From Ascidia mentula (taxonomy: Eukaryota > Chordata > Ascidiacea > Phlebobranchia > Ascidiidae): DNA of 64,000 nucleotides. The DNA is taken from NCBI GenBank assembly GCA_947561715.1, contig OX387198.1, positions 18,975,645 through 19,039,644 on the forward strand. Direction: 5' to 3'. The translations under genes were made by a program, and so were the position numbers. The notes beneath the pieces were generated by a model. It saw only the letters and a list, made by a program, of their open reading frames with translations, was not told the DNA's origin and ran no database searches. Positions 560-59,289 of the stretch are shown piece by piece. Each line of letters opens with the position of its first letter. Position 1 is the stretch's first letter.

Positions 560-3500
560 ATGAAGGACTTTCAACGTAAGTTCTTTTTGTCTTAAATTTT
601 AGATTTGATTAACCCACTGCCTATTATTATAGTTGGCTGCCCAGGCACTCCTTCGATGAGTTAAAGAGGTATGTAGTGTTTTTTTGTGCCATAAAGGGAA
701 ATTGGGACCCTGCAGTTGCAGTAGCAATTTCCTAAATTGCAGTATTAAGTTTGCCTAGTTACAATGAATATGATAATTATTGTTGTTTCTTGTGCAGAGA
801 AGGGAAGATAAGGCCAGATGTAAGTAAATAATGCATTATTCACATATTATTGCTACAAAACGTGCAGTGCATACAAAAAATATTGATTTTGCAGATGGCT
901 GAATAAGAAGGAGTTTTTTCAAAGGGTAAATTAAATTTTTATTGCTGGATTCTTATTTAGAAACATTTTTCACAGGAACAAATTAAAACATAGTGTAGCT
1001 TAAAAATAAAAGAAGTATTATATTTAAATATACTTGTTGCACCATTCCTCATTCAAACTACTTTATACAATCGGCTATTACATGATGTTAGCAATAATTT
1101 TATAGAACGCAAACATGAGAGGAAGGGTAAGTTGCAATTATGTTGTAATGTAAGTAATTTTGAAGTATTTGTAGTTGCTTAAGGTTTTGTGTTGCAGGGG
1201 CAGAGGCTTTTCTCAACAAGTAAGTGGCAATATTTAGCTTTCGTGTGTGTTTTGTCATATTTATCACAAAAATGTTTTAGGGTCGAAGCTCCCAACTACG
1301 TGTAAGTATTGATATCCTTAAGGCCGGGTCCACACAGAAACTGTCGCGAGCGTAGCGTACGCCCGCGCGCTGGCGCATTGGCTTCCACACAGAGAGAGAA
1401 ACTTTGGGCTGGCGAGCTCGCGCGCTGGCGGAAAGAAAAAATCGGCGTCCTCACTCACGCTCGGCGTATTTTCGCTGCCAGTTATCACACTTGGTGCTTT
1501 GTTTTGTATGGCGTTCAAAATGTGCTGTTTATTACCCAAGACATTACGGCCGTGGTGAATGCTGGTGTTAATGATGAGAAAGTGTTAAAAGGCAAAAAGT
1601 ATTGCATTAATCAAAACCATTACCAAGAACAACTGAAGTATGTTTGGCTGGTTTTGCACAACTCATGCAATTACCACATTCACAAGGCCCTGTTTAAAAA
1701 CTTTTGCCTGCATCTACAATGGAACAATAACACCAAATGAAACCTTTTTATTTTGTGGAATTGACTAAAACACAAATGAACAAGTAATACGAGAAATGAA
1801 AAGTTACTGGTTTGAAATCAATGGCGGATATTATGATCATTATGTTTATTAGGACTTTAATCACTGGAGTAGTTGTCATGGTGAACTGGTATTCTTTCAT
1901 GTTATTGAATTTATTGGGTTCCTTTTTAAATTTTTCTGAACAATGCTGCTAAGTTTTGGCAACGAGTGCTGAATAAACACAGAAAAATGTATAGGCAACA
2001 TTGAAGAAAACCTCGCAAAGAAATAAGAGCACATATTTTAGACAAATATACAGTATCATGAAACCATACAATGTATCACTTAATTAAAGCATCACATCAC
2101 ATGCAATTTTTAAAGCTAAACAGTAGATGATGCAAAAGATAACTATACCAAATATAACAATTCAACATTTTGAAAACATGAGCAACCTTTATTATGGTAT
2201 GAGCAAAACCAGCAACATTTTCTTAAACATGTTGATTGTTAGTGGATGCATGTTCATATTCCAATGAAAAATACTTCACTTTAAAATAGAAAGGAGGCTT
2301 GCTCAAAGCATTTCAAATAAAACCACATGAACTACTGCTCCAAAAGATATTGAAATCATGTCTAAATATCCATTAGTTTATTGGTTTTTAGGTGAATTGG
2401 CCAGCAAGAGCACAATTTACATTTTCTATTTAAACAGCTTTTTCACTAGCTAAATGGAAATACCTAAACTATGCAAAAGCTGAAACCTGGAAGATATAAA
2501 CATGTCATATAAACATGTATAATCAACGTGTAAATTATCTTGATAAGTTGATTTTGCCCTTCTACATAAAACTAGACATGTTCTTTTGAAGCGTTAATTC
2601 AACTAAAACTGTTCTTACAACTTTATAAAGCTAACATGATTTAACAAATTTCTATTTTGGTTTCAAAGGTAAAATGTCTTGTTAATTAAAGTTTTTAAAA
2701 AAAAACAGTTTGTGATTAATTTTCGAAAGTAATTAAACTCAAAAAATACTCTAGACCACATCAAACTTCCACTTACAACACCTATACCTTCGACCCACAA
2801 CCTAATTCCAAAGCTTGCGGGCGTGAGCTAAATCAAAATGATTTCGCCGGCGTATACGCTCAGCGGCAAGTCGCGGGCGTATTACGCCGAACGCTCGCAA
2901 GCCCGCGACCTCTTGTGGGCGAAAGTATACGCCCGCGGCAATGAAACAAACAAAGAATCCGCCGGCGCAAAGCGTGTGGACCCGGCCTAAGATCTTTTAC
3001 AACCCATTAGTATTTATTTTTTTTAATTTATTGAACACATTTCTTATTTCCATTTGAAACTTCACAGCAGAGAAGCCCGTCTGTTAGAGTAAGTGTCATT
3101 AAACTACATTAAATTATTTATATTGGAAATTCTAAATTTGTTTTATTTTTGCATATCTTCACAGCAGAGAAGCCCGTCTGTTAGAGTAAGTGTCATTAAA
3201 CTATATTGAATTATTTCCATTGGAAACTCTAAATCTGTTTTATTTTTGCATATCTTCACAACAGAGAAGCCCGTCTGTTTGAGTAAGTGTCATTAAACTA
3301 TATTAAATTATTTCCATTGGAAACTCTAAATCTGTTTTATTTTTGCATATCTTCACAACAGAGAAGCCCGTCTGTTAGAGTAAGTGTCATTAAACTACAT
3401 TAAATTATTTCTATTGGAAATTCTAAATTTGTTTTTTTTTGCATATCTTCACAGCAGAGAAGCCCGTCTGTTAGAGTTAAGTGTCATTAAACTATATTAA

Positions 3501-3852
3501 ATTATTTCCATTGGAAACTCTAAATCTGTTTTATTTTTGCATATCTTCACAACAGAGAAGCCCGTCTGTTTGAGTAAGTGTCATTAAACTATATTAAATT
3601 ATTTCCATTGGAAACTCTAAATCTGTTTTATTTTTGCATATCTTCACAGTCGAGGAGCCTTTCGGGTCCCAGGCCAAAACGTGTAAGTAATGACCCCTTT
3701 TTTTGACAATTGTGGTGGTTAAACTTGTGTACGTGTTTTGCAGGCGAGAAGTCTTTAACGTGAGTGGAATGAGTTTTCACGAAACCTTTTTTTAAACAAT
3801 GTGTTTTTCTTGCCAGGTCTGCAAAATAAAATTCGTTTCGTTTTATTTGTGA
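560..3852 (+). CDS. candidate microexon gene, hypothetical repetitive peptide of about 93 residues
   Basis: I do not recognise the product. Thirteen short exons bounded by AG...GT sites give one unbroken frame: 560-575, 1106-1126, 1198-1219, 1281-1301, 3068-3088, 3165-3185, 3265-3282, 3362-3379, 3455-3475, 3556-3573, 3650-3682, 3744-3759 and 3817-3852, starting ATG and ending TGA. All use GT donors and AG acceptors; the donor after 3475 (GTTAAG) is the weakest. From exon 4 to exon 11 every junction has the same phase, so exons can be skipped or duplicated without frame loss. The peptide is charged and repetitive. The middle is six copies of a six- or seven-residue word of the REARLL / EARLF kind, preceded by related words (AEAFLN, VEAPNY) and followed by RGAFRV and REVFN. 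No signal peptide is evident; the tail is hydrophobic-aromatic (KFVSFYL). The organisation recalls the micro-exon genes of schistosomes, but no homology is claimed. It could also be non-coding or a decayed gene. Confidence 0.5.
633..925 (+). other. additional candidate microexons (633-668, 798-819, 895-925)
   Basis: Three more short segments are flanked by good splice sites: TATTATAG / GTATGT, TTGTGCAG / GTAAGT and TTTTGCAG / GTAAAT. Joined after the ATG exon in the frame used by the rest of the gene they bring stop codons. The first two are open together in another frame (WLPRHSFDELKR, then EGKIRPD). They may be alternative, untranslated or frame-ending exons, or belong to another transcript. 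RNA evidence would decide. Confidence 0.3.
1322..2987. mobile_element. PIF/Harbinger-type non-autonomous element in an intron
   Basis: A 14-base perfect terminal inverted repeat, GGCCGGGTCCACAC, stands at both ends, with a 3-bp TAA duplication outside (1319-1321 and 2988-2990). A 3-bp TWA duplication with GG-starting ends is the PIF/Harbinger signature. Both subterminal zones are rich in CG-containing words such as CGCCCGCG. No transposase is visible in the AT-rich interior; reading frames at 1309-1740 cross the left end and are not credible. The element lies between microexons ending at 1301 and starting at 3068, so it would be spliced out with the intron. Confidence 0.8.
3045..3650 (+). repeat. 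tandem array of six 97-bp units, each holding one microexon
   Basis: Six near-identical units with a period of about 97 bp carry the block AGAAGCCCGTCTGTT between a TATCTTCACA(G/A)CAG acceptor and a GAGTAAGTGTC donor. Units alternate between two sequence classes. Units 1, 2 and 5 have ACAGCAG, which allows a 21-base exon; units 3, 4 and 6 have ACAACAG, which allows only an 18-base exon. The intronic parts are as well conserved as the exons, so the duplications are recent and include intron sequence. The following exon at 3650 begins with a diverged version of the same word. Confidence 0.9.
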
Positions 3853-4604: not shown

Positions 4605-5567
4605 TTACAATGTGCATGCAAATCGTTTATCCTCTTCTGCTTGCTTCTGTGATAAACCCACACATTTCATGTGAAACCATTGACCACATTGAGTGCACTC
4701 AACCCAAAGAGTGTTCATGGTTTCGTCCTCTTCAGCTTCACATGCTTTACAGGTGTCTTTATCATTTGTGCCTTCGAGGCATTTGCCAGCAATTACTTTG
4801 AAGATTTCGGTTCGATAATTATATGTGCAAACATTCTGCTGAAGACTTTTGTCTGTTGCTAGCCATTTGGCATACATACAAGTCATAACTCCACAGCTTG
4901 ATCCATCCAACTGTTGTGTTCTCTGTGGAGTTTCTATAGTGGTAATATTCCAACCAAATTTGGTTGTTAAAAGATAATTCACCATATCTTGTGCAGTCCA
5001 AACATTGTTATCAGTTTCTACATCAGGCATTGCCAAAGGGTCTATATAAAGCATTTTGTGGTTGGAGATGTCAATGACAAGTAAAACCCAATGAAACCCG
5101 GAAGGATTCCATGGTATAAAAATCTTTTGTTTCACCTTTAAATTCACCCCTTCCCAAACTTTTTTGATTGAAGCTTTCCTCTGTAATGTTTGAGCCACAG
5201 TAGAACAAACATATAGGGTGTGTTGGTGCTTGTTAGTTAATTGCCATAGGTAGCTGTTGATAACTTCATCAAAAAGCCAACCGACATTGAATCTGCTGTC
5301 ATGCCTTTTAAGTTCACATACTTCAGCTGGCGGCAATGCATCATCCAGAGATTTCAACTCCAACAAAGAAATTGAATGAGGGCCATTTTTTAAAATTTTA
5401 TTGGAAGGTTTAAAGCCCTTAATATGAGCTGTGATGCTTTGTTGCACCAATGACTTTGTGTTCTCTACTCTATCCATAAAATCATCATTAAAAGATTCAT
5501 TTTTGTCACAAGCGTTTGCCTTCTGTGGTGTCCTTTGTTTTACATTTTTCTTGACTAAAGGAAACAA
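4605..5567 (-). CDS. Ulp1-type (C48) cysteine protease with C-terminal PHD finger, transposon-borne
   Basis: The 320-residue frame contains a Ulp1/SENP-like catalytic domain at about residues 95-260: histidine 159 in GFHW, aspartate 176 in YIDP, and QLDGSSCG around cysteine 225. These match the His-Asp-Gln-Cys set of this family, which removes SUMO or related modifiers. A PHD-type zinc finger follows (C273, C276, C291, C294, H299, C302), although the frame ends shortly after and the last zinc ligands are not complete. MULEs in several eukaryotes carry Ulp1-like domains, so this is read as a transposon gene rather than a host protease. The frame probably began in upstream exons; the first ATG here is only the first one available. 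Confidence 0.7.
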   Translation of the reverse strand: MFPLVKKNVKQRTPQKANACDKNESFNDDFMDRVENTKSLVQQSITAHIKGFKPSNKILKNGPHSISLLELKSLDDALPPAEVCELKRHDSRFNVGWLFDEVINSYLWQLTNKHQHTLYVCSTVAQTLQRKASIKKVWEGVNLKVKQKIFIPWNPSGFHWVLLVIDISNHKMLYIDPLAMPDVETDNNVWTAQDMVNYLLTTKFGWNITTIETPQRTQQLDGSSCGVMTCMYAKWLATDKSLQQNVCTYNYRTEIFKVIAGKCLEGTNDKDTCKACEAEEDETMNTLWVECTQCGQWFHMKCVGLSQKQAEEDKRFACTL

Positions 5568-5576
5568 AGTGGTTAC

Positions 5577-5864: not shown

Positions 5865-6322
5865 ATCAATAAACTGTTGGTGGCTTTGTTTGCGGCCGCT
5901 GGTTTTGTCACTTGCAATGTTTTTTTAGGTTTGTTGAGAATTGATTGGTGGGCACAAGAAAAATTGATTTCTTTATTCTCAGTCACAGAATTTGAAACAG
6001 ATTCGACTGAAAGTTTGTTTACAACAGCAGGATCCAAAACCATGTAAACAGAGTTGCTGTACCATTCTGGCAGACTATGCCATCCCACATCTGCATACTT
6101 GTCAAATATTGCAAACATATGCTTGCATGGTAAAAAATTTCGCAAAAAGTCATGACATGTGCATTTGGGAAAATTCCTATCGTTACCAAATTTTACAGAG
6201 TATATTTCAGAAGTTGAGCTGCTTACTACAGTAAACAGGCCTTCTTTTTTACATATTAAACTTGCCTGAATGTTTGCAGATTCTCCAATACGCTTGATGC
6301 AATGTGTAACGTGCTTTTTCAA
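5858..6322 (-). pseudogene. MULE transposase C-terminal part with SWIM zinc finger
   Basis: The translation includes CTCHDFLRNFLPCKHMFA, the C-x-C...C-x-H pattern of the SWIM zinc finger found at the C-terminus of Mutator-type transposases. The first dozen bases at the high-coordinate end belong to the adjoining BEL LTR; MULE sequence begins at the CAATG duplication. The frame closes shortly after the linker. Confidence 0.75.
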
Positions 6323-6759
6323 CGGATCGGCGGCGTTACACGCTACACAGCAGTTTTGGCCTTTATTCCAAATGTGTTAAAAACGCGTCCCAGTTCTCCT
6401 AGGTAGTGGCCAAGCCCGCAGAACACAACAGACACTTGTATTCAATACAACAAAAATGACCAGCACAACACCAACGGAACAGGAACGGTTTCTATCAACA
6501 AAAAGAAACACAATTGTACATACGGTTTGCAAACATTCTACTACACTCACCAAACTGTTTTGCGACCGATCTATCAGCAGGCACAGGTTGCCCGTTGCGA
6601 AATCACATTCACAATCTGCATCAATCAGATGCCGGCAAAACTTCCAAAGGTCACAGTTTTTAGAGATAAACACAGTTATCAGACGTAAACATTATCTACG
6701 CCTTATTCAAGTAGAATCCTTATTCAAATAGAATCAGGTTAAAGCACATGCCAAAAAAC
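6305..6759 (-). repeat. 3' LTR copy of BEL family 1
   Basis: It matches the right LTR from 9579 to about 9998 almost base for base, including TGTAACGTGC at 6305 and GCACATGCC near 6750. Two spliced-leader words stand in tandem at 6702-6734. The inner boundary is approximate. Confidence 0.75.
6702..6734 (-). other. two tandem spliced-leader words inside an LTR
   Basis: In minus-strand reading, ATTCTATTTGAATAAG (6734-6719) is followed by one G and then ATTCTACTTGAATAAG (6717-6702), which differs at one base. The first is identical to the 16-nt spliced leader of Ciona mRNAs. The partner LTR of the same element has only one copy at this place. Confidence 0.85.
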
Positions 6760-6782
6760 CAATTTTTACAGCGAACAAAGAT

Positions 6783-7241
6783 TCACAACTCATTCTCCTG
6801 CGCGGGGATCACCACGCAGAGTTTAGTGATGGGTCTCTTGAGGAAACCGCCGGCCGTCTTCACTGCAACGCTCCTCACCACCTGGTGTTTATCATGGAAT
6901 AGTTCGGTGACTTTTCCAAGAGGCCATCGACATCGTGGAGCAGAATCATCGACGAGTAGCACAACATCACCTTTGGAAAGATTACTTCTCCTGGTGTGCC
7001 ATTTTTGTCTGGAGATGATTGTCCGGGGGTACTCCCTCAGCCATCGTTGCCAAAACTCATCGGCAACATGCTGAACCAGGCGGTATCGGCGTCTGGCGTA
7101 GCAATCGCTCGGGTAGGTCATCGTCGGCGGCAATCCCACCGATGGGTTAATTCTTAATAGGTGGTTTGGCGTCAAGGGCATGTATTCACCAACTTCCAGG
7201 GAAACTTCAGTTAGAGGTCGTGAATTTATGATGTTCTCCAC
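6783..7241 (-). mobile_element. BEL family 1 integrase C-terminal region
   Basis: INSRPL, LTPNHLLR and RRRYRLVQHVADEFWQRWLREY are the hallmark blocks of the BEL/Pao integrase tail. The frame ends shortly before the 3' LTR. Confidence 0.8.
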
Positions 7242-7681
7242 CTCACGCCCCTGCCTGTACCAATAAGTAATGTGACAGACCCACCTTTGATTTGCGGTAA
7301 ATGTACTCCCTTCAGATGCTTGGGACGAACAGGTGTTCCAAACTTTGGGACATGCTCAGGCGGGACAGGGATTTCGTCAAGTAACGTCACTTCCGGTAAA
7401 TTGAACTCCTCTCCTCCCCTCAAGGGCAGTACTGACATGGAGATTTTCACGGTGTTCAGCTCCTTTGCACCATTGATCGAACCGAGCTGCATACGAACGG
7501 GTTCGCCTTCTACCTCAACATCCAACATGTTGATCAGCCGTTTCTCACAGAAGGTTTTGTCCGAACCAGTGTCCAGCAGAGCATGTGTTTCAATTTCCTT
7601 GTCCCCGACGCGGACTCGAACAGGAACAATGTCTAACCAAGCGGACAATGAGTTGCTACCATGACAGCCCACGGTATTCAA
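7226..7681 (-). mobile_element. BEL family 1 aspartic protease region
   Basis: The block ALLDTGSDKTF is the aspartic protease active-site motif, in the context typical of BEL/Pao polyproteins. It lies directly after gag. Confidence 0.75.
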
Positions 7682-9531
7682 GCAACTACCCTGCGTAAAG
7701 ACGCCGAGTCATTTCCATTTTTGTCCTCCGAAGATGCGTCCGTCGGTCGAGGTCTCGCCGGATTGTGCAGTAGCACATGATGGTATGCACTTCCACAACC
7801 TTCCTCATCGCAAACCGTCTCACTGCTACAATCGACAACCATGTGTCCCACTTCAAGACACCGGAAACACAAACCTTTCGCTCGCACAAATTGTCGTCGC
7901 TCACGATGCGATTTTCGTTTGAACGCATAGCAGACGACGAGGTCATGCGGCTTTGCACAACAAGGACACGGTTTCTTTCGTTGTGTTGACTGTTGTTCGT
8001 TCTGCACCGATTTCTGTGCACTAGTAGTAGCAATGGCGTTGTATGACGTCGCCTTTTGTCGTTTGATACCTTGATTCTTTTCAGGGCCTGAAGGAAAGAG
8101 ACCTTTCCCATATATCGAGTTGGCTTCCTCACTCTGCTTTACAACGAAATTTGCAAAATCCACGAAACGCGCGACTCTACCCGTTTCCCTTTGCAATGCA
8201 ACAGATACAGATACCCACTTACATTGCATCTCCACAGGTAGCTTGCTAGCAATAGCAACAATAAAACCGACGGAATCTACGGTAGACATACCAGTGATTT
8301 CCTCCAATGATACGCAGCATCTCTTAAGGAGGACGGCCAACTTTTCCAAACCGTTGGGGTCGTTTCGTCCAATCTTCGGACTTTCTTGCAACTTCCTCTC
8401 GCAGCAACGAGCGATGATATGTGGTTGACCATAGCGTTCGTACAATTCTTTCCAAGCAAGTTCGTAGCTGATTGCAGGGTTGGAGGATGACGTATAGTGC
8501 CTCAGCTTTTCATTGGCACTCGGTGTGCAATGTTGCAGCAAGTATGTAAGTCTTAAATCATCACAGTCCAATCTGCTAGCAATATGAATTTTGTATCGAT
8601 TTGCAAATGACCAATAGTCCATAGGGTCCCCATCAAACTTTGTTATTTGTGGTTTTGGCAGAAAACGTTCACCAACCTCCGTATAATGAGGTCTAAACTG
8701 TGTCGTAGAGGTATGTCCATTATGTGGCGAGTAAATGTTATCACGTGGTACCTTTTGGCGACTAGGACGTTCGAATTCCTTGAGCTTCATTTCATTTGGT
8801 TTAGGATCTTCGATCACTAATTCTTCAGGATCCTTGGGACACACTGTGTCTTTCCGGAGTTCGTATTTTAACGAACAAACACTCCCAACTTCTTCCCATG
8901 CGTTCAGTTCGGCTTCTGCTAATTCTAACTTCCGTTGAGATTCGCGATCAGCGATTTCAGCTTCCAATTTTCGTTTAGCTAGTTCTCGTTCAGCTTCCAA
9001 TTTTCTTTCTTCTAGTTCTCGTTCAAGAGTGAACTCGGCTTGTTTTAATTCCTCTTCTTTTCGTTCTTCATCTTGCTTGCGTGCTAAACGAGCAAGATTT
9101 AGCTTCACACGACTTTCCTTTAACTTAATACTGTATGTCGAGCTCCTAGAAGATCTTACGCTCCCAGTGTGAATAGTGGATTCACATCGTTTCGACGTTC
9201 TACTTGCGGGCGGTGAACGGCTACCAGCTTCCGAGACAGGCACCGGTGTTCAAATGTCTCGCAGCCACTGCCTGACGCGAGTGTCAAATTCGTTCTTGCC
9301 TCGAACACAATCCCTTTTTCGAGACACACTTCCCGGCATCGTGGCCTCATCGGACATATCTTCACACAGGTTCATAACCTCGGTGTAGCTTGCTTCTACG
9401 GCAAGCAACGCTTCTTGCAGTTTTTCCTTTTCGCGGTTGAACATCACCCTCTCAGCATCGAGGTAATCATCTTGTAACTGTTTTAATGCACAGCCAAGCC
9501 GTTTTCTCTTCTTCTTTGTCAGGACAGGCAT
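7678..9531 (-). mobile_element. BEL family 1 gag region
   Basis: Two reading frames (9250-9531 and 7678-9243) cover a gag of the BEL type: an N-terminal coiled-coil, a long Glu/Lys/Arg-rich coiled-coil, a conserved FDGDPMDYWSFANRY block and a distal zinc-knuckle zone (CFRCLEVGHMVVDC). These are structural proteins of the retroelement particle. Treated as a fossil part. Confidence 0.75.
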
Positions 9532-9578
9532 GTTGTGACGTCACAAACGGTTGTAACAATGACAGTTTGAAACTTGTA

Positions 9579-10135
9579 TGTAACGTGCTTTTTCAACGGA
9601 TCGGCGGCGTTACACGCTACACAGCAGTTTTGGCCTTTATTCCAAATGTGTTAAAAACGCGACCCAGTTCTCCTAGGTAGTGGCCAAGCCCGCAGAACAC
9701 AACAGACACTTGTATTCAATACAACAAAAATGACCAGCACAACACCAACGGAACAGGAACGGTTTCTATAAACAAAAAGAAACACAATTGTACATACGGT
9801 TTGCAACCAAACTGTTTTGCGACCGATCTATCAGCAGGCACAGGTTGCCCGTTGCGAAATCACATTCACAATCTGCATCAATCAGATGCCGGCAAAACTT
9901 CCAAAGGTCACAGTTTTTAGAGATAAACACAGTTATCAGACGTAAACATTATCTACGCCTTATTCAAATAGAATCAGGTTAAAGCACATGCCAAAAAACT
10001 GGCAACGCAAGTACAAGCAAACCTAACCACGCGGTCTGCACGCGCAGCCTTTGTTATGAGTGTTGCGTCAAACATAGAAAGCATAACAAAAGCAGTAACG
10101 AAAAGGAATAAACAATTTTGGTTTGGGAATCTACA
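9579..10135 (-). repeat. 5' LTR of BEL family 1
   Basis: In minus-strand reading it begins TGTAGATTCCC and ends GCACGTTACA. The end at 10135 is fixed by the CAATG duplication, and the outer 160 bases match the solo LTR at 38770-39298. The spliced-leader word lies at 9959-9974, about 161 bases from the LTR start. Confidence 0.8.
9959..9974 (-). other. spliced-leader word inside the 5' LTR
   Basis: Exact 16-base match, on the minus strand, to the ascidian spliced leader ATTCTATTTGAATAAG, about 161 bases from the LTR start and in transcript sense. This is where the U3/R border, that is the RNA 5' end, would be expected. Confidence 0.85.
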
Positions 10136-10282
10136 CAATGTTTCACCAATTTTCTTGGACGATTTTGAAGAAAATTGGAAACATCTGCGTTGTAACTTCT
10201 GTAATCTCCAGATGATCTCATGTTTTCTTGCTTGTACCTTTATATGATGTAATTATATTGATTTCGCTTGCCACTTCCATTT

Positions 10283-14976: not shown

Positions 14977-17364
14977 CAGGGGTGCACAACCTTTTTACTA
15001 CTGCCGGCCGCAACGCACGCACTACTGTGTCCTAACGGCCGCCGTTGAATATACTGCTTTTCCAACGATATACCCCTGATAATTTCGACAAGTTGACGTG
15101 AGCAATATAAGAAAGGAAAGAAAATGATTCCATACCTGAAAATTGTGCACTATTTATTATTTACAAATTACGTATATACAACGTAACGAAGAGTTGAAGT
15201 ATTTAATGGCTGCCTTGTTCTTGCACGCCCATAGACAAACTTTCGAAATTAGGTTGCTCGTTGAAATCATCAGACGAAGACCCGACTCCAAATTGCTGTC
15301 CAACATACGTGTTCGGTACTTGTTCTTCAAATACTTCATTTTTGAAAACGCTGCTTCGCACACGTAAGTGCTTCCAAATAGAACAAGAGTTTTTCTGGCT
15401 AATTCTTGCAGTTTAGGATATTCAACTGCACTTTTCCAGGTATCCAGCAAACCTTCTTCGTCTTTAAATTTCTTGACTAGCTGCTCGTTATTTTTCAACT
15501 CAACCAGCTCCATTTGAAGACGTAACGGTGCAATATCGGTTTCCACCAGATGTGGAAAAGCAACGATTCTGATTGTTTGCGAAATTTTCTCAAAATCTTT
15601 AAAACGGTTAGCGAATTCCTCCAACAGCCCGTCGAAAACGCCGGAAAATATATCGATTGGAATATTCCCAACATTTATTTCTTTGCTGTCAATCAGCGCT
15701 GTCACTTGCGGAAAATGAAAGAAATTGCGTTGCCTTAGATGACTTTTAAAGAGTAGACATTTGTCCCGGAAATCTTGTACTCTTTTGTACAGGAGACAAA
15801 CTGTTGTTGTTTTTCCTTGCAAACTTTGGTTCAGATAGTTGACATGAGTTAGAAAATCCACCAGAAAAGCAAGAGATGTGAGGAAGTCAACGTTGATCAG
15901 GGGGCAATACTTGTTTTTAAAGCCATAATATTCTGTTATTTCTTTTCGCAAAAGCAGAACACGGCAAGACGTCTCTCCCTGAGACAACCAACGGACGGAG
16001 GAGTGATAAAGCACGTCCTCTGCTGACGTATCACTTGAGCTTAAAATTTCTTGAAATTGCCTGTGATGAAGAGCATTTGTCCGAATGAATAAAATAATAC
16101 CATTTACGTCTTTCAGAACGTTACTTAAAGCAACGGATTTGGCACACAATGCTTCCTGGTGGATAATACAGTGAAGATTAACGAGCTCGTTATTTTCATG
16201 CTCCTTACATACGTAATCTGACAATCTTGTCACAAATCCTTGTTGCTTACCCGTCATGGCAGGTGCGCCATCCGTGCAAATGCCACGAAGACTTTTTAAA
16301 TCTAATCCGGACCGAATGCAGGCATTTTTGACTGCATCAAATATGTCTTCACCACGGGTGCGGGTAGCCAGTGTTTCCATTGAAAGAAGATCCTCACACA
16401 ACTCAAAACTTGTAGATAGAGAACGAACGAAGACTAGCAGTTGCTCAGAGTCGTTGATGTCCGTAGATTCGTCAACAGCGAGCGCAAGTAAACTTCCTTC
16501 TTTATTAACTTTTGCTTTCAGAGAGAGCTTCAACTGCTGAGCGATGTCAGATTGCCGGCGTTGCACAGTAGCGCGCGAGAGAGGAATCGATGAGTAATCT
16601 ATTTCTTTGCCGGGATGAATGCATTTCACAACGTCCATGATACATCGCTTAACAAGTTCCCCATCGGAATAAGGCTTTCCTGCAACACCAAGATGATATG
16701 CCACTCTGTAGGAAGCTTCGCAACGATGATTGGTGGAGTGAACGAAAGACGAGATGCAAGCGGTTTGCTGACGTACACGCTTTTTTAAATTTTCGACACA
16801 GACCTTCCTAGACTCTCCATCCAACTTTGCATAGGCGTGTGACAGATGCCGCTGAAAATGCTGCTTTGCATTATCCCCTTTTACAGTTTTAACGATTTGG
16901 CTGCAAATTAAACACTTCATGGTATGTGTTGCTGTCTGCATCATAAAGTAATCCACCTCCCATTTGGGATTAAACGCCCTTTTCTCTTCTTTTAGCAACC
17001 TTTTGCGTTTCAGTGACATGACTGATTGAGTCCACTGTTTAGCTTTTTGACAAATGTACATGCGTACATGACAATTGACAATTTACAGACATGCTATCAA
17101 TGTTTTGTGACGTCACCATCCGTATTGTTTCGCTTTGTCTCGCATGTAATTCAAAAGTTGCGGTGGCTGCAACAGTTACTACTCGCTACAGCGAACGAAT
17201 GTGTACAACGCGGAAATGGAAATGGGCCTAATTAAAAGCTTAACTCTTGAGTCCGCTTTAAAAACAAGTTTCAGAAGCAACGACGGCCGCCAATGCATGT
17301 ATTTGCATATAAATGTGCACGGCCGCAAAAAATAGCGTCCGCGGCCGCAGGTTGTGCACCGCTG
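14977..17364 (-). mobile_element. hAT DNA transposon, apparently complete
   Basis: The ends are CAGGGGTGCACAACCT and, inverted, CAGCGGTGCACAACCT (15 of 16 identical). A perfect 8-bp duplication, GTTTATGT, flanks them at 14969-14976 and 17365-17372. The single transposase gene is open over 634 codons. The element is 2388 bp, lies in the LTR of a Gypsy copy and is younger than it. An intact frame, good ends and an exact target duplication together suggest recent mobility. Confidence 0.9.
15157..17061 (-). CDS. hAT transposase (BED finger, ZBED5/SCAND3-like group)
   Basis: The protein would excise and insert the surrounding 2.4-kb element. A zinc finger of BED type is visible at C50, C53, H68 and H72. 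The RNase-H-like catalytic positions fit D197 (LAVDEST), D264 (CTDGAPAMTGKQQGF) and E569 (CEAAFSKMKYLKNKYRTRM, within the hAT C-terminal dimerisation block); VRWLSQGE is the conserved tryptophan block. The frame is uninterrupted. The natural start is more likely the second ATG (residue 16, about position 17016), giving MSLKRKR, as in relatives. Similarity to domesticated vertebrate ZBED5/FAM200/GTF2IRD2-type proteins is by motif only. Confidence 0.88.
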   Translation of the reverse strand: MYICQKAKQWTQSVMSLKRKRLLKEEKRAFNPKWEVDYFMMQTATHTMKCLICSQIVKTVKGDNAKQHFQRHLSHAYAKLDGESRKVCVENLKKRVRQQTACISSFVHSTNHRCEASYRVAYHLGVAGKPYSDGELVKRCIMDVVKCIHPGKEIDYSSIPLSRATVQRRQSDIAQQLKLSLKAKVNKEGSLLALAVDESTDINDSEQLLVFVRSLSTSFELCEDLLSMETLATRTRGEDIFDAVKNACIRSGLDLKSLRGICTDGAPAMTGKQQGFVTRLSDYVCKEHENNELVNLHCIIHQEALCAKSVALSNVLKDVNGIILFIRTNALHHRQFQEILSSSDTSAEDVLYHSSVRWLSQGETSCRVLLLRKEITEYYGFKNKYCPLINVDFLTSLAFLVDFLTHVNYLNQSLQGKTTTVCLLYKRVQDFRDKCLLFKSHLRQRNFFHFPQVTALIDSKEINVGNIPIDIFSGVFDGLLEEFANRFKDFEKISQTIRIVAFPHLVETDIAPLRLQMELVELKNNEQLVKKFKDEEGLLDTWKSAVEYPKLQELARKTLVLFGSTYVCEAAFSKMKYLKNKYRTRMLDSNLESGLRLMISTSNLISKVCLWACKNKAAIKYFNSSLRCIYVICK

Positions 17365-28100: not shown

Positions 28101-28486
28101 GTTACACACAAGCATTGCACTTACTAATACTTTTCTTGATTTAATGATCTACACAAAATAAATCCTTTTTTTGTTGTCTGTAAATTGTTAAATCACCAAT
28201 CACAACATGCCACTTACCGAATGTTGTTCTTCTTTGTACTAAAAAATATTGTATATTTAACATTAAACTGTAACATCATTCTGATAATCTGTGATTGTGT
28301 TTTTGAATAAATTTGCAATGGGTTATTATATAAACCTGACGCCTTTGTGTTTTCATAGTTGATATCACTCTCAATATACCTTTAAACAACCATCATGAGG
28401 TTTTCAGGCTTGGCAGCCCAGGCAATGCAGCCCAGCTGGATCATCCACTTTTTCCTGACAAGTCGAAGCAAGATTTGAAAAATCAA

Positions 28487-28559
28487 GCTCCCGGTGAGGT
28501 TTGAACTCACGACCCTGGGCTAACCAGGCCCAACGCTCTACCAACTGAGCTACAGGAGC
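28487..28559 (-). tRNA. tRNA-like gene, copy 1 (anticodon possibly GGT, Thr)
   Basis: The 73-base minus-strand sequence has acceptor arms GCTCCTG / CGGGAGC, D stem GCTC / GAGC with AGTTGGTA loop (A box), and T arm GTGAG-TTCAAAC-CTCAC (B box). The anticodon arm TGGGC-CTGGTTA-GCCCA implies anticodon GGT. One extra base before this arm, and T after the anticodon, are irregular. TTTTT follows within a few bases and would end Pol III transcription. It may be a functional tRNA, a tRNA-derived SINE head or a pseudogene. Confidence 0.6.
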
Positions 28560-28838
28560 TCAGTGGTTTCACGGGGTATATTGTGGCCAAGGTACACTGG
28601 TGCGCAAGCGCACAACTTGCCAGGCAACCTTCACATATACGTAGGGGATCTCTACCACCGTATCAGATGACGCAGTAATATTTCATGCAATGGCATGATA
28701 GGCAGGATCGCCCCACTGCGCAGGTCCTTGCTTGGCGATCACAGCTAACGTATCGCGATCATGAGGTTTTCAGGCTTGGCAGCCCAGCTGGATCATCCAC
28801 TTTTTCCTGACAAGTCGAAGCAAGATTTGAAAAATCAA

Positions 28839-28911
28839 GCTCCCGGTGAGGTTTGAACTCACGACCCTGGGCTAACCAGGCCCAACGCTCTACCAACTGA
28901 GCTACAGGAGC
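28839..28911 (-). tRNA. tRNA-like gene, copy 2
   Basis: Identical in sequence to copy 1 at 28487-28559, with the same downstream T-run, in the second tandem unit. The same reservations about the anticodon arm apply. Confidence 0.6.
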
Positions 28912-29179
28912 TCAGTGGTTTCACGGGGTATATTGTGGCCAAGGTACACTGGTGCGCAAGCGCACAACTTGCCAGGCAACCTTCACATATACGAAGGGGA
29001 TCTCTACCACCGTATCAGATGACGCAGTAATATTTCATGCAATGGCATGATAGGCAGGATCGCCCCACTGCGCAGGTCCTTGCTTGGCGATCACAGCTAA
29101 CGTATCGCGATCATGAGGTTTTCAGGCTTGGCAGCCCAGGCAATGCAGCCCAGCTGGATCATCCACTTTTTCCTGAGCC

Positions 29180-31955: not shown

Positions 31956-32360
31956 TGTTACATCGCCACTATGTTATGTGATGTATTGATAATTTGACGT
32001 CAGCACAATGTACCGTTGTTACGTCACAAATACCGTTGTTCCCGTAGAACCCCAGTGCATGCCTGAACTGTTGTTGGCTAAGTTTTAGTTTTGGTTAGTT
32101 TAGTTGTCGTGCACTGCTGTAGGAAACTAATATTATTTCTATTTGAATAAGACAATTTAAGTGCAAGTTGAATCTGCTAACGTTGTTTCCTGTTGTGTGA
32201 AATTGGGAAGAAGCCGATATTTTTGTGACTGGTTCCACAATAGTTCGGTAAGCAGAATTGTGCATGTTTTTGGTCGCTAATTCAACGCGTGTTGTGTGTT
32301 AAGAACCATTGCAGAATTCCCGTCTGTTGCACTGTCCGGGCGCAACCAGTCACGCCCGTC
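31956..32360 (+). mobile_element. solo LTR of BEL family 2
   Basis: It begins TGTTACATCGCCACT and shares with the LTR at 50035-50445 the words TTTGACGTCA, CCGTTGTT(A/G)CGTCAC, GATAATTTAAGTGC-like and TGCACTGTCCGGGCGCA. No coding part adjoins, so it is read as a solo LTR. A spliced-leader word lies at 32137-32151. The right border is approximate. By eye it is clearly diverged from the 50-kb copy, so it is older. Confidence 0.65.
32137..32151 (+). other. spliced-leader word in BEL family 2 LTR
   Basis: TTCTATTTGAATAAG matches 15 of 16 bases of the ascidian leader, in the sense of the LTR and about 181 bases from its start. Confidence 0.75.
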
Positions 32361-37689: not shown

Positions 37690-38285
37690 TTACCCCTAGG
37701 GGGTAACGCTATTTCATGAGCGATCGGTGGGCGTCCCAGTGACAGTTGCCCAAATGGCTGGAGGCAAACCCAATATCAATGGCCAAACGAGGAAATCGAT
37801 GAAGAAAATCTTATTTCCCGACGCATGGGTGCGTTTCGACGCCCCACGTGGCCTCGTCATTGCGATGGCCGTCACCTGTTGTTGACGCAATGTGATTTCT
37901 GCCCAGTACTCTTCTATTTGAATAAGGTGTAAGCAGCAAAAGCTGTCCACCTCATTTGTATGAGTTGTGTGGTTGAGCTATGATGAAACGCCAGAAAGAA
38001 GCGGAAATTCTGTCAAGGAATTGACGGGAATATTGACTGTTCGTCCCGGAAGGCTGGAACGGAGTGCAGATGTTCATCTGACTTGCCAACCGGGGGTGGT
38101 GATGAGGAATTCTCCTTCCACTTCGACAGTCAATTTGACGTATGAGGGAAAAGAACGAATACGTTGCCAACTGTGCTCTGAGGTCCTGCCCACGGACGTC
38201 AAGGCACAAGGACATCTCCGGCTACAGCTGCGGCAGATGCGACAAAACTTACGAGCGAATGTCTTACTCAAAACTTCTTCCATTA
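37690..38285 (+). mobile_element. probable 3' LTR of the Gypsy remnant
   Basis: A purine tract (CCCCTAGGGGG) after the last pol codons is followed by sequence without coding signal, as expected for a polypurine tract and LTR. The 22-base word starting GGTGGGCGTCCCA recurs at 47137. A spliced-leader word lies at 37912-37926. Borders are uncertain because no second LTR copy is in the window. Confidence 0.4.
37912..37926 (+). other. spliced-leader word in the presumed Gypsy LTR
   Basis: TTCTATTTGAATAAG, 15 of the 16 leader bases, on the same strand as the pol remnant, roughly 210 bases beyond the purine tract. GTGTAAGC follows it. Confidence 0.6.
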
Positions 38286-38769: not shown

Positions 38770-39298
38770 TGTAACGTGCTTTTTCTGCGGATCGGCGGCG
38801 CTACACGCTACACAGCAGTTTTTTGGCCTTTAGCCCAAACGCGTAGGTAGTCGAGCCCGCGAAACACAACAGTCATTTGTATTCGATACAGGAACGACCG
38901 GCACAACAACGCGCCAGGAATGGAACGGTTTCTAGTTAAAGAAACACAATTGTACATTCAATATATAAACAAATTCACACTATGGCAAATTCAATCGCAC
39001 TTGCCGAACTGTTTTGCGGTAGTGACAACATCCAGTAAACTTTTCAATTGTTGCAAAGCAGTCAACAAACTATTTAGCGTTTTGCAACTAACATCCTTAT
39101 TCAAATAGAATGAGTATTATTATATGTACCACAATAACTGGCAACACAACTAGCAATGAAAAAAAACATAACCATGCGGTCTGCACGCGCACGTCTACTG
39201 CGCAGCCTTTGTTACACAACAACGAGAGCCGTGCCAAACATAGAAAACATAACGAAAACAGTAACAAAAAGAAAGAAATTTTGGTTTGGGAATCTACA
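38770..39298 (-). mobile_element. solo LTR of BEL family 1
   Basis: In minus-strand reading it starts TGTAGATTCCCAAACC and ends GCACGTTACA, matching the right LTR at 9579-10135 along its length. The flanks TAGAG (38765-38769) and CAGAG (39299-39303) fit a 5-bp target duplication with one change. It is nested in an L1-like LINE. By eye it is noticeably diverged from the 9.6-kb LTR. Confidence 0.8.
39096..39111 (-). other. spliced-leader word in the solo LTR
   Basis: Exact 16-base match to the ascidian leader, in transcript sense of the LTR, about 187 bases from its start. The surrounding LTR bases differ from the 9.6-kb copy, whereas this word is unchanged. Confidence 0.85.
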
Positions 39299-44679: not shown

Positions 44680-45747
44680 TTAAAAATTTTGTGTTATAAT
44701 ATGGTTTCGTAAAACCCGACCTGCAACAGATGGTTCTTGATTGTTATTGGATGCATCAAGTACACTGATATGTTCATTGGGGTCATCAAACTCTTCGAGA
44801 ACTTCACCCTTTCGCACAGCATAGTTGTGTAAGCAGGCTGTGGCAACTATAATGGTAAGTGTATTTTTTACATTTGTTCTGATTGGAATCCTCAAACAGC
44901 GAAAACGTTGTTTCCAAACTCCAAATGCACGCTCAATTTTTGTTCTTGTGGTAATGTGTGAACAATTGTAATTTCTTTCTTTCTGGTTGCTTGGATTCAG
45001 AAGTGGTGTCATCATATAATTTCTGCAAGCATATCCTCCATCACCAAGTAGTAACCCTTCAATTAATTTGTTTTCTAGTTGGTGACACAAGTGACTGTTG
45101 TCAAATATCCTGCAGTCATGAGTGGAACCGGGCCATCGACAAACCAGATTGGTGAAGAGCATATCAGGATCACAGACAGCTTGCACATTGATGGAGAAAT
45201 ATCCCTTTCTGTTTCGATATATTTCTGCAGTATCTCCACCAGGCGAGACTATGGGGACATGTGAACAATCAATTGCACCAATCACATTTGGAAAACCAGC
45301 CACTTCATAGAACCTGGCTTTCACAATTTGCAACAGTTCATTAGATGGAAAATCAATGAACATTTTGTGTCTCTTTGCCACTGCTTTTGATACTCTGTGA
45401 ATAATTCGGCAAGAAGATGATTGGCTAATGCCTATTAGATCACCATCTGTCTTTTGGAAATGCCCTGTTGCAAAAAATCTCAAAGCAGTGCATATTTGTA
45501 AAATAGGTGGAATATAGTGGTTCTTCGTAGTGACACAGTATAGATCATTCTCTATTAACTGTAATAACTGAATCACATTTTCCTTGCAAAACCTAAATCG
45601 ACTTGTAAATTCTGCTTCATTAAACTTTTCCAGAGGGTTTATTCTATCGCGTATATTTCTTCTGATTGTTGTATTGTGCTCACTTGTATCGTTTTCAATG
45701 AAATCCAATAAATCTATTACATCCATGATATGTTTTACAATACCCAC
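44680..45747 (-). CDS. Harbinger transposase (DDE_4 type), 355 residues
   Basis: One open frame covers the whole protein. The catalytic triad fits D160 in VIGAIDCSHVPI, D211 in CRWPGSTHDCRIF and E272 in TKIERAFGVWKQRF. A helix-turn-helix lies in the N-terminal third (ICTALRFFATGHFQ...GISQSSSCRIIHRVS). It is convergent with the Myb-like gene. With both ends intact this copy could be mobile or very recently so. Confidence 0.9.
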   Translation of the reverse strand: MGIVKHIMDVIDLLDFIENDTSEHNTTIRRNIRDRINPLEKFNEAEFTSRFRFCKENVIQLLQLIENDLYCVTTKNHYIPPILQICTALRFFATGHFQKTDGDLIGISQSSSCRIIHRVSKAVAKRHKMFIDFPSNELLQIVKARFYEVAGFPNVIGAIDCSHVPIVSPGGDTAEIYRNRKGYFSINVQAVCDPDMLFTNLVCRWPGSTHDCRIFDNSHLCHQLENKLIEGLLLGDGGYACRNYMMTPLLNPSNQKERNYNCSHITTRTKIERAFGVWKQRFRCLRIPIRTNVKNTLTIIVATACLHNYAVRKGEVLEEFDDPNEHISVLDASNNNQEPSVAGRVLRNHIITQNF

Positions 45748-46989
45748 TAGTCTTATCTAAGGAGATTTTTAAATATTTTTATTTTTAAACTTTTTTTGCA
45801 AATTTTTGATTAAAATATATTTCTCAGACGTTTTTAGAAAATTTTACCAAGTTTCATAATTTTAAAACACCTCTAACGTTGTCAAATTCGACTTAATCCA
45901 ACCTTAAACCTGGGGTATAGCAGGATTAAATTTTCGGTACTTTAATCCTGGATTAAAATATAATCCCGGTTGGTGAATATGGCATTCTGGGATAATCCCA
46001 TGTTTAATCCAGGATTAGCTTAATCTTGGATTAATCTAACTTGGTGAATTCAACCCTTGGTGTTTTAAAACAGAGATGGAGAGTTATTGATCACACAGGA
46101 GGAAGGTTATGTTATTCACCTTTACAAGTTTGTAAAATTACAATGTGTTGTTTCATTCTGCACAATATTTGTCGCCTTCACAATGTGCCACTGCCAGCAA
46201 ATGCTGACATAGATTCACTACTAGACACCACCACAACAAATGAAATTCATGACTTACAAGGTAGTATTGTGAGAGATTCCATTGTTTCTACATTCCAATA
46301 AAGTCATGTTTGTGAAATGTTTTTGCGTTTGTTTATTGAAAAAAGTGGCTGCACAGCAACAGATTTGGACTTTTCAAAAAACTACAGTTTACACGATGAC
46401 TAAACACAAGAAATAAAATGATTCGTCATAAAACTTGCAAAACAATGCCGCCAATGTCCACGTGAAGCTCAACTACCAACACAAAAAGCCTTCCGTAAGA
46501 TGTCGCATAGCGCGACTTCCTAATTTTGCTGAGACAGACGTCTTTTTTCTCACGATTTTGACGCATTCTCTCGTTTCTGCGTCAGGCTTTAGCGAGGCGT
46601 TTGCGAGGACACTTCGTAATACCAAATATGTTACCGAGTTCCTCGCTCGTTAAGTCTCGTTAACTTAGCGAGCGAGCAAGTGTTCATAATGCCGCCCCTG
46701 TTCTTTTGCTAGAAGTCGACCTGCCAGGTGTTGGACACTTCCATAGTGGCCGACAACGTGTCCCGGGCAAGTCAAACGGTGGGCTAAGGAGCGAGCAGGG
46801 TGTACGACTGTGTTGTACTCCGCTGTGATCCTCAACTGGCGAGACTCCATGGCGGGTGAAACGATGCCCTGCTTATAGACGATCTGGCTTTACCGCCGAC
46901 GCTCTTGCGCCTTCTGTCTGCGGTAACCCTCGAACAGGGATATCGGATCTGGCAGTTGTTTAGTAGGGGCACGTATAGATGATGCCGAC

Positions 46990-55863: not shown

Positions 55864-56349
55864 TGTGGCAACACGCATGTTTTCCCTGGCCTAGTTCTGA
55901 CCACGCCGCATGTTTCCTGAAATTCAATACTGGAACACTAGACGGAAAGGATGCAGGCGGAGCTAAGCCTTCCTGCAGAGTTCAAACCAAGCTGCTGATA
56001 CCCTGCTGGACAACCACGTTTTTCCTGAATGTTTGTTATAAAACGCCCTCGTAGTAATTGTTCGCTCTCTCAGTCGCTCGTATTCTCTCGGCCCTGTCGT
56101 TATTCTTCCCATCGCGCTGTAAACGTTCGCACGTTCTTTTAATAGTTAAATTCGCTGCAATTCAGTCACGTGTTAAACGCGCTTGAAACAAGTTAAACTT
56201 AAGCCACCTGGTAATTGCAATCGTGTGTTTCCATTAATAAAGAAGTCTGTTCACGGAGCTTTTAATTCAGTAGTCTATATCAGCAAGAACACGCAAACAG
56301 ACTTTAGCTTCAGCAAAGCAGCGACTGGGAATCTTACTTGTACGCTGCA
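55864..56349 (+). repeat. 5' LTR of the env-bearing Gypsy copy
   Basis: It has a TATAAAA box near 56037 and ends at TACGCTGCA before the primer-binding site. It differs from the right LTR at only a couple of bases plus one short length difference. No spliced-leader word is present. Confidence 0.9.
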
Positions 56350-56603
56350 CTGGTGACCCCGACGTGATCACAATTGCTCTTACCAAGTTGGTTTGTTCCG
56401 TTTATTTTTGAAAAATATTCTACTGAATTGCATTCTTGCGAGTCTCACAAGTCTTTTTGCTCTTACCAGAACTGAATCTATCTTCTTGGAGGATCGTCGA
56501 GAACCGCTTCTTCGGAAACTACGTTCCCAGACGCTCCTTTGTCACGGTACTGTACAATATTTCATTTTATTTTTGTTTGTGTGTCGCTTTTCTTAGTATC
56601 AGA

Positions 56604-57330
56604 ATGAGTTGGTTTCCGTTTAAACAATCGGACAAGCCAGGTAGTTTGCGAAAAACACCTTCGCGCGGAAGGGTTCGTTTCACACCAGACGAGTTAGATA
56701 AGGTTCGTGAAGCGATGCGGGACGATTGTCGCATGATTGATACACGGCTAGGCCCGGTGCGCGCAAAATCACCACATGCTGGACCATCAGGTTCGCAACG
56801 ATTTTCGACGTTGCCTGATGATTTTAGCAGTCGTGTGAATCCAGCCGACGAGCGCTTACCTAAGTTGACTCGATCCCCTAGTACATCTCCAGTCAGAATG
56901 TCGCGAAGAGGATTAGTGCCGACGCCAAGTGTTCCAAAGCTTACTTTGCCTGCTGTTTAGACGAGCATGCCTCGAGCGTGGTTCAAAAGCGTTGAGCAGA
57001 CATTGGGAAGCTGTGGAATTAGTGGCGAGTCGCAGATGTTTAATTACGTTGTGTCTAGCCTTGGTGAGGAACAAATTTCTAAAGTTGGCCACGTGGTTTT
57101 GAGTAGAGCTCATGATGAACCATACTCTGCTTTAAAGAATGCGCTTATTACGTTTTATGAAAAAAGCGAAATAAGTCGTCTTAATCAGTTGTTGAATGAG
57201 ACGTCATTGAAAGGTAGACGCCCCACCGAGTTATTACATGAGATGTTGTCGTTGTTGGATGCAAGAAATGGTTTGGACCCGATGACCGAACGCTTGTTGA
57301 ATCGGTGTCGAAGAGGTAGAATTTTTGGGA
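56604..57330 (+). mobile_element. Gypsy gag region
   Basis: A basic, Ser/Pro-rich N-terminus starting MSWFPFKQSDKPGS is followed by a helical capsid-like part (VVSSLGEEQISKVGHVVLSR, EKSEISRLNQLLNETS). It resembles the gag of the Gypsy copy at 11.9 kb in layout (IGHIILGK-type block). Fossil part. Confidence 0.65.
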
Positions 57331-57369
57331 CATCAAGTCACTTGTCATGGTTTTCACCCGTTAGAAAAC

Positions 57370-59286
57370 AAGGCCTAAAACGATAGAAGAATTACGTAAA
57401 TTTCTTGGCATGCTAATGTTCTATAGAAGATTCATTCCACACTGCGCTGAACATACCCAAGTCTTAACGGCCATGTTGCAGAAAGCCTTCAGGAAACGCA
57501 AATTCATTGATTGATCCCCTGAACAAATAGTGGCGTTTGACAAAGCTAAGGAATTGTTGAGCACGGAAACCATGCTACATTATCCAAAGTTTAATGGCAA
57601 GTTTTCATTGGTTTGCGATTGCAGTAACTTTGCTATGGGAGCGGTGTTAAATCAGTTTGAGAATGGTCAATGGTTGCCACTTGCATTTTTCTCTCGGAAG
57701 TTGAATTCCGCTCAAAGTAAATACTCGACGTTTGACCGAGAATTGTTGGCTATTTATGAAGCAATAAGGCATTTCAAACCTTTATTACGTGGTAGAGATT
57801 TCAATGTTGTCACCGATCATAAGCCATTGGTAAAAGCGTTTCACTCCATGTCTGACAATCTTTCACCACGTCAAGAACGGCATTTTGATTACATTTCACA
57901 ATTTACATCTCAGATTGAACACATCCAAGGTTTACAAAATGTTGTCGCGGATTGTTTGTCAATTTCCGGAGACAATCGACTTTCACGAGTTGTCAGTAGA
58001 ACAGGACACTTTGCGCTTTCAGAACTTGCTAGAACAGGATTGTAGGTCTCTTCAACTTGTGAAACGAAGATGGCCAGAAATTAATGTCGATCTCATTGGA
58101 GATATTTCCACAGGTGTTTTTAGGTTGGTTGTTCCTACTGGTTTTAGAAAACAAATTTTCAACACGGTTCATTCTTTATCACATGCTGGAATTAGAATTA
58201 CTGAGAAATTGATTGGAGAACGGTACGTTTGGCCAGGTATGAGAAAAGATATCCATGAGTGGTGTAAAACTTGTTTACAATGTCAAGCCGCAAAGGTACA
58301 AAGGCATAACACTGCGCCGCTAGGAAGTTATATTGAGCCACAGGAGCGTTTTACCGATCTTAATTTGGATGTCGTAGGACCTTTACCAAATTCTAATGGT
58401 TATAGCTATATCTTTACTATCATTGATAGATTCACAAGGTGGTTAGAAGCTATTCCTCTCACTAACATTTCTGCTAGTAATTGTGCTGATGCATTTCTAC
58501 TCAATTGGATTTCGCGGCATGGAGTTCCTCTTCGTATAACAACAGATCGAGGATCTAATTTTGTTTCCGGTTTATTTACGGATCTTTGTGAATTAAATTA
58601 TGTAATAGCACGAGCTATCACCCAATCGGAAATGGCCTGATCGAGAACACCCATCGAAGATTAAAGGCAGCTCTTAAAGCAAGACCAATGGACTGGCATT
58701 CAAATTTAGGTTTGGTAATGTTGGGTATACACGCTAGTTACAACCAGGAATTAGATTGTTCCCCGGCCGAATTGGTTTTTGGAACCACTTTAAGATTACC
58801 TTTGGAATTCTTTGAAGATACTGCATCTGTCTCTCACCGTTCAGAATACGCAACACAACTTTCATCCTTATGTCAAATCTAACCTTTTCAGCAAGACGAC
58901 CACAACCACCTCGCAAATCTTACCTGGACAAGGATCTTCAAACGTGTACCCATGTCTTTGTTAAAATAAGAGGCCACAGAACACCACTTCAAAATCATTA
59001 CAAAGGACCATACAAAGTCTTAGAAAAGCATGACAAATACTTTGTATTGGCTATGTCCGGACGGGAAGATAGTGTTTCCATTGATAGGATTAAAGTAGCT
59101 CATTTGCCTAATAACATACCTTCGGATTCTGGCACACTAGATACTGTTCAGGACACTCAGGATACCGTATTAGACCAATCTAATCTACCTCTTGTTACAG
59201 ATTTCGAGACACCAGAAACACCGGAACCAACAACGTTCACCAGACGTGGTCGCGAAATCCGAAAACCATTAAGATTCAGACAATAA
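57370..59286 (+). mobile_element. Gypsy pol region (RNase H and integrase)
   Basis: Recognised parts are the end of the RT domain (IEELRKFLGMLMFYRRFIPH), RNase H (FSLVCDCSNFAMGAVLNQFE, DFNVVTDHKPLVKAF), integrase zinc-binding and core domains (VWPGMRKDIHEWCKTCLQCQ, FTIIDRFTRWLEAIPL) and a C-terminal tail. Several breaks. Confidence 0.75.
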
Positions 59287-59289
59287 GCC

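Follow-up and report, generated by a model that had tools for sequence, protein, structure and literature searches.

As a rule, the only template for the terminal repeat of an LTR (long terminal repeat) element is the element itself. The locus described here raises the question of how the spliced leader (SL) of the host comes to lie inside such a repeat, in transcript sense. The window (the whole stretch of DNA that was analysed) is 64,000 nucleotides of the genome of the ascidian Ascidia mentula (contig OX387198.1, positions 18,975,645 to 19,039,644 of the forward strand). Positions given without a contig name are those of the window.

The SL word and the BEL elements of the window

The 16-base word ATTCTATTTGAATAAG is found without mismatch at three places of the window, all on the minus strand (9959-9974, 39096-39111 and 6719-6734; word search). 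The first-pass annotation, which lists the first two places, had named it the leader of Ciona mRNAs, and the same word is given for Ciona in the available portion of PMC7986045. Nine matches with at most three mismatches occur in the window, against a mean of 1.65 and a largest value of 6 in 100 shuffles. Words with one mismatch are also found on the plus strand, at 32136-32151 and 37911-37926. The former is included in a segment (32002-32158) that is 72% similar to another locus of the genome (L010) from the upstream flank through the SL; the two possibly represent a further SL-bearing repeat family. The surroundings of the latter, also read on the plus strand, look unique.

The first SL word belongs to BEL1, a BEL/Pao element (6300-10140) that has an LTR pair and the target-site duplication CAATG on both sides (left, 6300-6304; right, 10136-10140). 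CAATG at both outer ends assigns the 5′ and 3′ LTRs to one insertion. The 5′ LTR (9579-10135, minus strand; 557 bp, TGTAGATTCC...CACGTTACA) carries a single, exact SL unit (9959-9974, minus strand), which had been placed 161 bases into the LTR in transcript sense; the LTR ends and the flanking 5-bp repeats agree with this placement. The 3′ LTR of the same insertion (6305-6759, minus strand) lacks the first ~136 bases of U3. It reads SL-G-decayed SL at 6702-6734, minus strand: an exact outer unit (6719-6734) and an inner unit with one mismatch, T7C (6702-6717), separated by a single G (17-base step). One SL unit and a second indel of 17 bases separate the two LTRs; sequences are therefore also altered after insertion (or by slippage). 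Both a BEL-type gag and a Pol C-terminus are present on the minus strand: a gag-type ORF with DUF1759 (7681-9249; PF03564, E 7.1e-11), an aspartyl protease piece (7229-7708; PF13650, E 2.1e-5) and a BEL/Pao Pol C-terminal piece with DUF5641 (6786-7355; PF18701, E 1.2e-29). Reverse transcriptase (RT), RNase H and integrase were not found in the three ORFs scanned. They appear to be deleted, since the protease ORF overlaps the DUF5641 ORF; with the loss of U3 in the 3′ LTR, this makes the copy look defective.

The word at 39096-39111 lies in a solo LTR (38770-39298, minus strand; 529 bp) of BEL2, a related family, with the flanks TAGAG/CAGAG (4/5 equal). It is exact, and its placement 187 bases from the start of the LTR, in transcript sense, is borne out by the LTR ends. 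The BEL2 solo LTR and the BEL1 5′ LTR are 71-72% identical over their two alignable parts. The strand of both SL words (9959-9974 and 39096-39111) is that of the BEL gag and pol pieces.

Other features of the window are as follows. An ORF with a Ulp1-type peptidase C48 and a PHD finger (4608-5576, minus strand) adjoins the BEL insertion. A tandem array with a 97-bp period is found at 2993-3659, a hAT-type ORF with a Spin-doc zinc finger at 15160-17082 (minus strand) and a DDE_Tnp_4 transposase ORF at 44683-45756 (minus strand). A 300-bp direct repeat with 352-bp spacing (28419-29070) includes a tRNA match on the minus strand in each copy. Two identical 300-bp repeats bracket RNase H and integrase ORFs at 55864-61653, where a further ORF weakly resembles herpes glycoprotein B (E 4.6e-6, which does not reach the curated cut-off); this segment may be an LTR element with a possible envelope gene.

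SL RNA genes of the host

The SL of the species itself is this exact word: SL RNA genes with the same 16 bases are found in the same genome. Gene-type copies (SL|GTAAGCATC: the SL, then a GT donor) number 1661 genome-wide. The arrays read (contig C1) consist of tandem units of 719-720 bp, in which the SL is followed by GTAAGCATCACGCCCTGCTTGGGCTACTTTTTTGAC. Read by eye, this sequence appears to include a GT donor, a stem (GCCC/GGGC) and an Sm-like run. The stem is present in the computed fold, the energy of which is not unusual (z -0.68). Each ~720-bp unit read also has a second gene-like SL copy, in which the same GTAAGCATC is preceded by the variant ATTCTGTTTGAATAAG (L031, C1:15238500-15243500; L032, C1:15288000-15293000). 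The period of the SL array exceeds the maximum of Tandem Repeats Finder (500), which is why this program gave no hit there.

Exact copies outside the SL RNA genes

The genome (195.8 Mb) includes 2157 exact copies of the SL word and none of the reversed word; ~0.6 copies are expected by chance (calculated by hand from base frequencies). The reversed-pattern control also gave 0 in the gene-type and SL+next-base searches and in that for a G before the SL. The 496 exact copies that are not of the gene type (2157 minus 1661) are distributed as SL+A, 108; SL+GV, 86; SL+C/T, 133; SL+GTB, 146; other SL+GTA, 23. The distinct SL flanks that were read (66) fall into 25 clusters. An upstream flank is shared within BEL1/BEL2 and within families A, B (L004-L006), C and D, besides single pairs. 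Some of the non-gene copies read lie in LTRs, others in insertions with unrelated upstream sequence.

Of the adjacent SL+G pairs at 3-12 kb, 36 share a strand and 1 does not, as expected for LTR pairs. This count covers 182 listed copies: 82 of the 86 SL+GV copies (four members of tandem triples are omitted) and 100 listed of the 146 SL+GTB copies. Six same-strand SL+GTG copies are found at C70:4925923-4949391, with gaps of 3922, 3918, 3925, 3550 and 8153 bases; they form a tandem or nested array of SL-bearing units.

LTR families that carry the SL

The SL is found inside the LTRs of four groups that are dissimilar outside it: BEL/Pao, Ty1/copia (family C) and families A and D. In blastn with the SL masked (E 0.1), A, C and D matched neither one another nor BEL, whereas BEL1 and BEL2 matched each other. 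The SL lies 161 bases into the LTR in BEL1, 185 and 187 in BEL2, 161 in A, 251 in C and 407 in D, and the base that precedes it varies among the families. LTR ends with 5-bp target duplications were identified for BEL2 (L021/L020, ATCAC), copia C (L008/L009, GCATA), A (L014, ATCAG; L012, GTGAC) and D (L088, a solo LTR flanked by AACGT). LTR ends and 5-bp target duplications are also found in many BEL1 copies. Family C is assigned to Ty1/copia by its LTR pair with the duplication GCATA and by an RT of this type (RVT_2, PF07727, E 1.5e-19) encoded in L009 on the strand of the SL, upstream of the 3′ LTR. In BEL2, Integrase_H2C2 and DUF5641 precede the 3′ LTR of L020; the gag match of L021 is weak and under the curated cut-off. 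A gypsy RT and an RNase H are found upstream of a D unit in L086, but without a matching target duplication.

The word is the SL of the species, is sense-oriented in dissimilar LTR families and has poly(A) signals only downstream. AATAAA/ATTAAA was found in four of the six LTRs read, at +333 (BEL1), +96 (A), +38 (C) and +18 (D) relative to the SL, and not in the two BEL2 LTRs. No TATA-like word was found at start-site distance upstream in five of the six LTRs; copia C has TATATA at -17.

Proposed origin and renewal

The DNA end-products alone are observed; the RNA steps given here are those that we infer from them. Transcription would start in U3. The outron would be replaced by the SL through trans-splicing, which would lead to a genomic RNA of the form cap-SL-R. 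Minus-strand strong-stop DNA would copy the SL and then transfer to the 3′ LTR, and both LTRs of the new element would carry the SL where U3 meets R. The only AG of the SL is at its end, and the LTR groups read showed none directly before it, so that a copied SL can act in turn as a 3′ splice site; its terminal AG would then receive a fresh SL in each cycle. Slips of strand transfer would lead to tandem SLs, with the older units inside.

The host SL was probably written into the LTR when trans-spliced element RNA was reverse transcribed, and the copy can then be re-used and renewed. The parts of this reading are not equally firm. The origin by reverse transcription of trans-spliced RNA is very probable; continuing renewal of the SL is only somewhat more probable than not. 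A bolder reading, also somewhat more probable than not, is that in at least two superfamilies (BEL/Pao and Ty1/copia) and the two other dissimilar LTR families the host SL is a self-renewing first segment of R and the U3/R boundary is rewritten in each round. If this is true, the 5′ end of the element RNA comes from the host SL RNA and not from the element.

Tandem units, decay and conservation of the SL

The BEL sample includes 31 LTRs: the best 30 of 46 matches (40 of 175 candidates scored) and the solo LTR. The exact SL is found in 20 of the 31, so the word is not missing from most LTRs of the family; the other 11 are without the exact word. At least one SL-like unit with two mismatches or fewer is found in 28 of 31. 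Two units are recognisable in 18 of 31, at a 17-base step (SL-G-SL′) in 17 of these 18. In the two-unit LTRs, the upstream (outer) unit is exact in 13/18 and the downstream (inner) unit in 0/18: exact SL copies are seen outside older, decayed ones. The inner T7C is common by descent, so this contrast does not represent 18 independent events. T7C is the inner unit, below an exact SL, in the main group of LTRs; in L058 and L059 it is the outer unit, above a C4A unit. This shift of T7C from outer to inner suggests that fresh SLs are added outside and that old ones move inward. L093 has three exact SL units and a partial fourth. In copia C, L008, L009 and L023 have an exact SL and, after it, a decayed unit of 16 bases; L073 has a single SL.

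The copia tally covers 22 of 37 LTR matches; the other 15 miss the SL place or lie beyond the listed contigs. Matches that cover the SL place have the exact SL in 13/13 cases at 86% identity or more (C1-C70); the 8 at less than 86% (C1-C69) have none among the SL copies listed. One match at 81% on C70 has a G6 variant near the expected SL place.

Dispersed copies that vary at position 6 number 34 (20 G, 12 T, 2 C; reversed control, 2), and those that vary at position 11 number 5, including 2 A-to-G (reversed control, 1). G6 is the variant of the second SL gene: its 20 dispersed copies compare with 2 for the control variant, A-to-G at position 11. The T6 variants (ATTCTTTTTGAATAAG without a following G) are without a known donor SL gene; 7 of the 12 lie in C71:18050362-19439818, perhaps as a local amplified family.

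The word is indeed the same in two LTRs of the window that otherwise differ, which had been read as a sign of selection or repeated renewal; by itself this counts for little. Compared with the 5′ LTR of the window (L033), 15 of 22 other distinct copies keep the SL exact; conservation equals or exceeds that of the SL in 86 of 544 16-base windows, a count that includes the SL itself. Compared with the solo LTR, 15/23 copies keep it exact, and its rank is 17/516. Near-identical copies were collapsed for both comparisons, and the short L055 was left out of that with L033. Within BEL LTRs, the SL word is not uniquely conserved; it is one of several conserved blocks.

This last property is also what would be expected if each family had captured the SL once or a few times and had then inherited it under selection on the LTR, perhaps as a direct SL-like start site, without continuing trans-splicing or renewal. 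Such an account is unlikely, although it is the best of the alternatives. It would explain old LTRs with a decayed SL, the 11 of 31 BEL LTRs without the exact word and the 8 of 8 copia matches under 86% (C1-C69, SL place covered) that have none among the SL copies listed; slippage could make the tandem units. It does not readily explain why fresh exact units lie outside decayed ones in two superfamilies and why T7C passes from outer to inner, nor why dispersed copies include G6, the variant of the second SL gene. A direct start is also disfavoured by the lack of a TATA-like word at start-site distance in five of the six LTRs (all but copia C, TATATA at -17).

Marks of reverse transcription and non-LTR insertions

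RT can copy the cap as an extra G. A G directly precedes the SL in 118 of 241 SL+H copies (next base not G), and G makes up 19% of bases. The test on isolated copies used the 160 of these 241 that lie on contigs C1-C70 (28 clustered, 132 isolated): G precedes the SL in 71/132 (p 1.3e-18 vs 19.3% G). These values refer to SL+H copies, most of which lie outside the LTR families read. In 33 loci outside the LTR families, G is found at -1 in 18 and at each position from -2 to -8 in 2-5; L022, one of the 33, is BEL-LTR-like, and without it G at -1 is found in 17/32.

L078 is a complete insertion: ATAAGTCTGGTTA, G, SL, 207 bases, ATAAGTCTGGTTA. It is the one clear insertion among the 33 loci searched with the SL at its 5′ junction and a target duplication. 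A duplication of comparable length was not found in the other 32 loci, where L013, L025 and L082 have matches of 8-9 bases only.

A hammerhead-like motif, CTGA.GATGC..GC[GA]AAA, follows the SL directly or closely in 13 of the 33 loci (L013, L016, L024, L072, L074, L075, L077, L078, L080, L081, L082, L089, L090), the upstream sequences of which are unrelated. A hammerhead ribozyme was not confirmed at this motif by Rfam, at the gathering threshold or with E up to 1. The more permissive search gave two weak hammerhead hits elsewhere in L078 and L082, and hairpin-family matches at fold-backs in L074 and L075. In L074, L075 and L081 (at about position 1500), the upstream flank is an inverted copy of the post-SL sequence, as if the cDNA had folded back on itself.

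The non-LTR insertions demonstrate that RNAs led by an SL undergo reverse transcription in this genome. They lend some plausibility to a host accident, in which RT switched template to the SL RNA or to a trans-spliced host mRNA during synthesis of the element cDNA. This is nevertheless very improbable: several families would have had to undergo it at a similar place, each time in sense orientation and with the junction precisely where the SL ends, and the SL RNA intron (GTAAG...) is absent after the SL in the LTRs read. Still less credence is given to a cis-element of the LTR (promoter or weak poly(A) signal AATAAG) that equals the SL by chance, or to an SL gene that received its leader from an LTR. 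The word does contain AATAAG, which is near a poly(A) signal, and it does sit in LTRs; against this, dissimilar LTR families share these 16 bases with insertions whose upstream flanks are unrelated, a bias to G is found just before them, and the same word is the Ciona SL in the available portion of PMC7986045. A purely cis-regulatory word is rejected on the dissimilar LTR families and the unrelated flanks. Chance is rejected by the nine matches in the window (shuffle mean, 1.65) and by the 2157 exact genomic copies vs 0 reversed. The proposal of the first-pass annotation that the leader was written in by reverse transcription is supported by the dissimilar LTR families, the G bias, the tandem SLs and the variant SL.

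Significance

If the preferred reading (the host SL written into the LTR from trans-spliced element RNA) is true, part of the terminal repeat is supplied by a host RNA-processing reaction, and the DNA records which RNAs were trans-spliced before reverse transcription. It would also show how an outron-bearing promoter can live in U3, and ~496 exact copies could serve to study how the SL evolves, how caps are copied and how strands are transferred. A link between RNA splicing and retrotransposition becomes testable. In such genomes, a search for SL RNA genes or for reads that bear an SL will also hit transposons.

Comparison with known systems

Trans-spliced element RNA and genome-encoded SLs are already in print, in the portions of the sources cited below that were available. 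The SL as a regular part of an LTR was not described in the titles and abstract openings surveyed, which does not prove its absence from the literature.

The BEL1 element resembles BEL/Pao elements by its gag DUF1759, aspartyl protease, DUF5641, TG..CA LTR ends and 5-bp target duplication. The copy of the window differs from a typical BEL/Pao element by the host SL in its LTR and by the lack of RT and integrase in the three ORFs scanned.

The systems that follow are compared from the available portions of the papers. Hydra: the SL is found on ~30% of TE Iso-Seq reads (PMC12220107). Element RNAs can thus be trans-spliced there as proposed here; the evidence in that portion is RNA, with nothing on the SL in LTR DNA. 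Caenorhabditis elegans: Cer1 (gypsy) is likewise an LTR retrotransposon whose RNA receives SL1, which is found on a spliced 2.4-kb RNA and not on the 8-kb GAG-POL RNA (PMC3315495). Since the latter is not trans-spliced, no SL would reach the LTR in this way. Echinococcus: the transcript of a solo LTR is cis-spliced to an ancestral SL acceptor (PMC4558846). Schistosoma mansoni: six SL exons are merged to transposable elements, and trans-spliced, retro-transcribed elements were suggested (PMC5832876). Assembly chimeras were allowed for in that case and the position in an LTR is not given in the portion available, whereas the present genome has hundreds of copies, LTR anatomy and target duplications. 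Dinoflagellates: retrogenes carry a relic spliced leader, DinoRL (PMC12014239). As proposed for the present LTRs, reverse transcription of trans-spliced RNA writes the SL into the genome, and repeated rounds lead to tandem relics. DinoRL differs in that host mRNAs are retroposed and the re-spliced relic loses its first seven bases. In the present elements, the SL lies within the LTRs of mobile elements and has its only AG at its end, so re-splicing could restore the whole SL.
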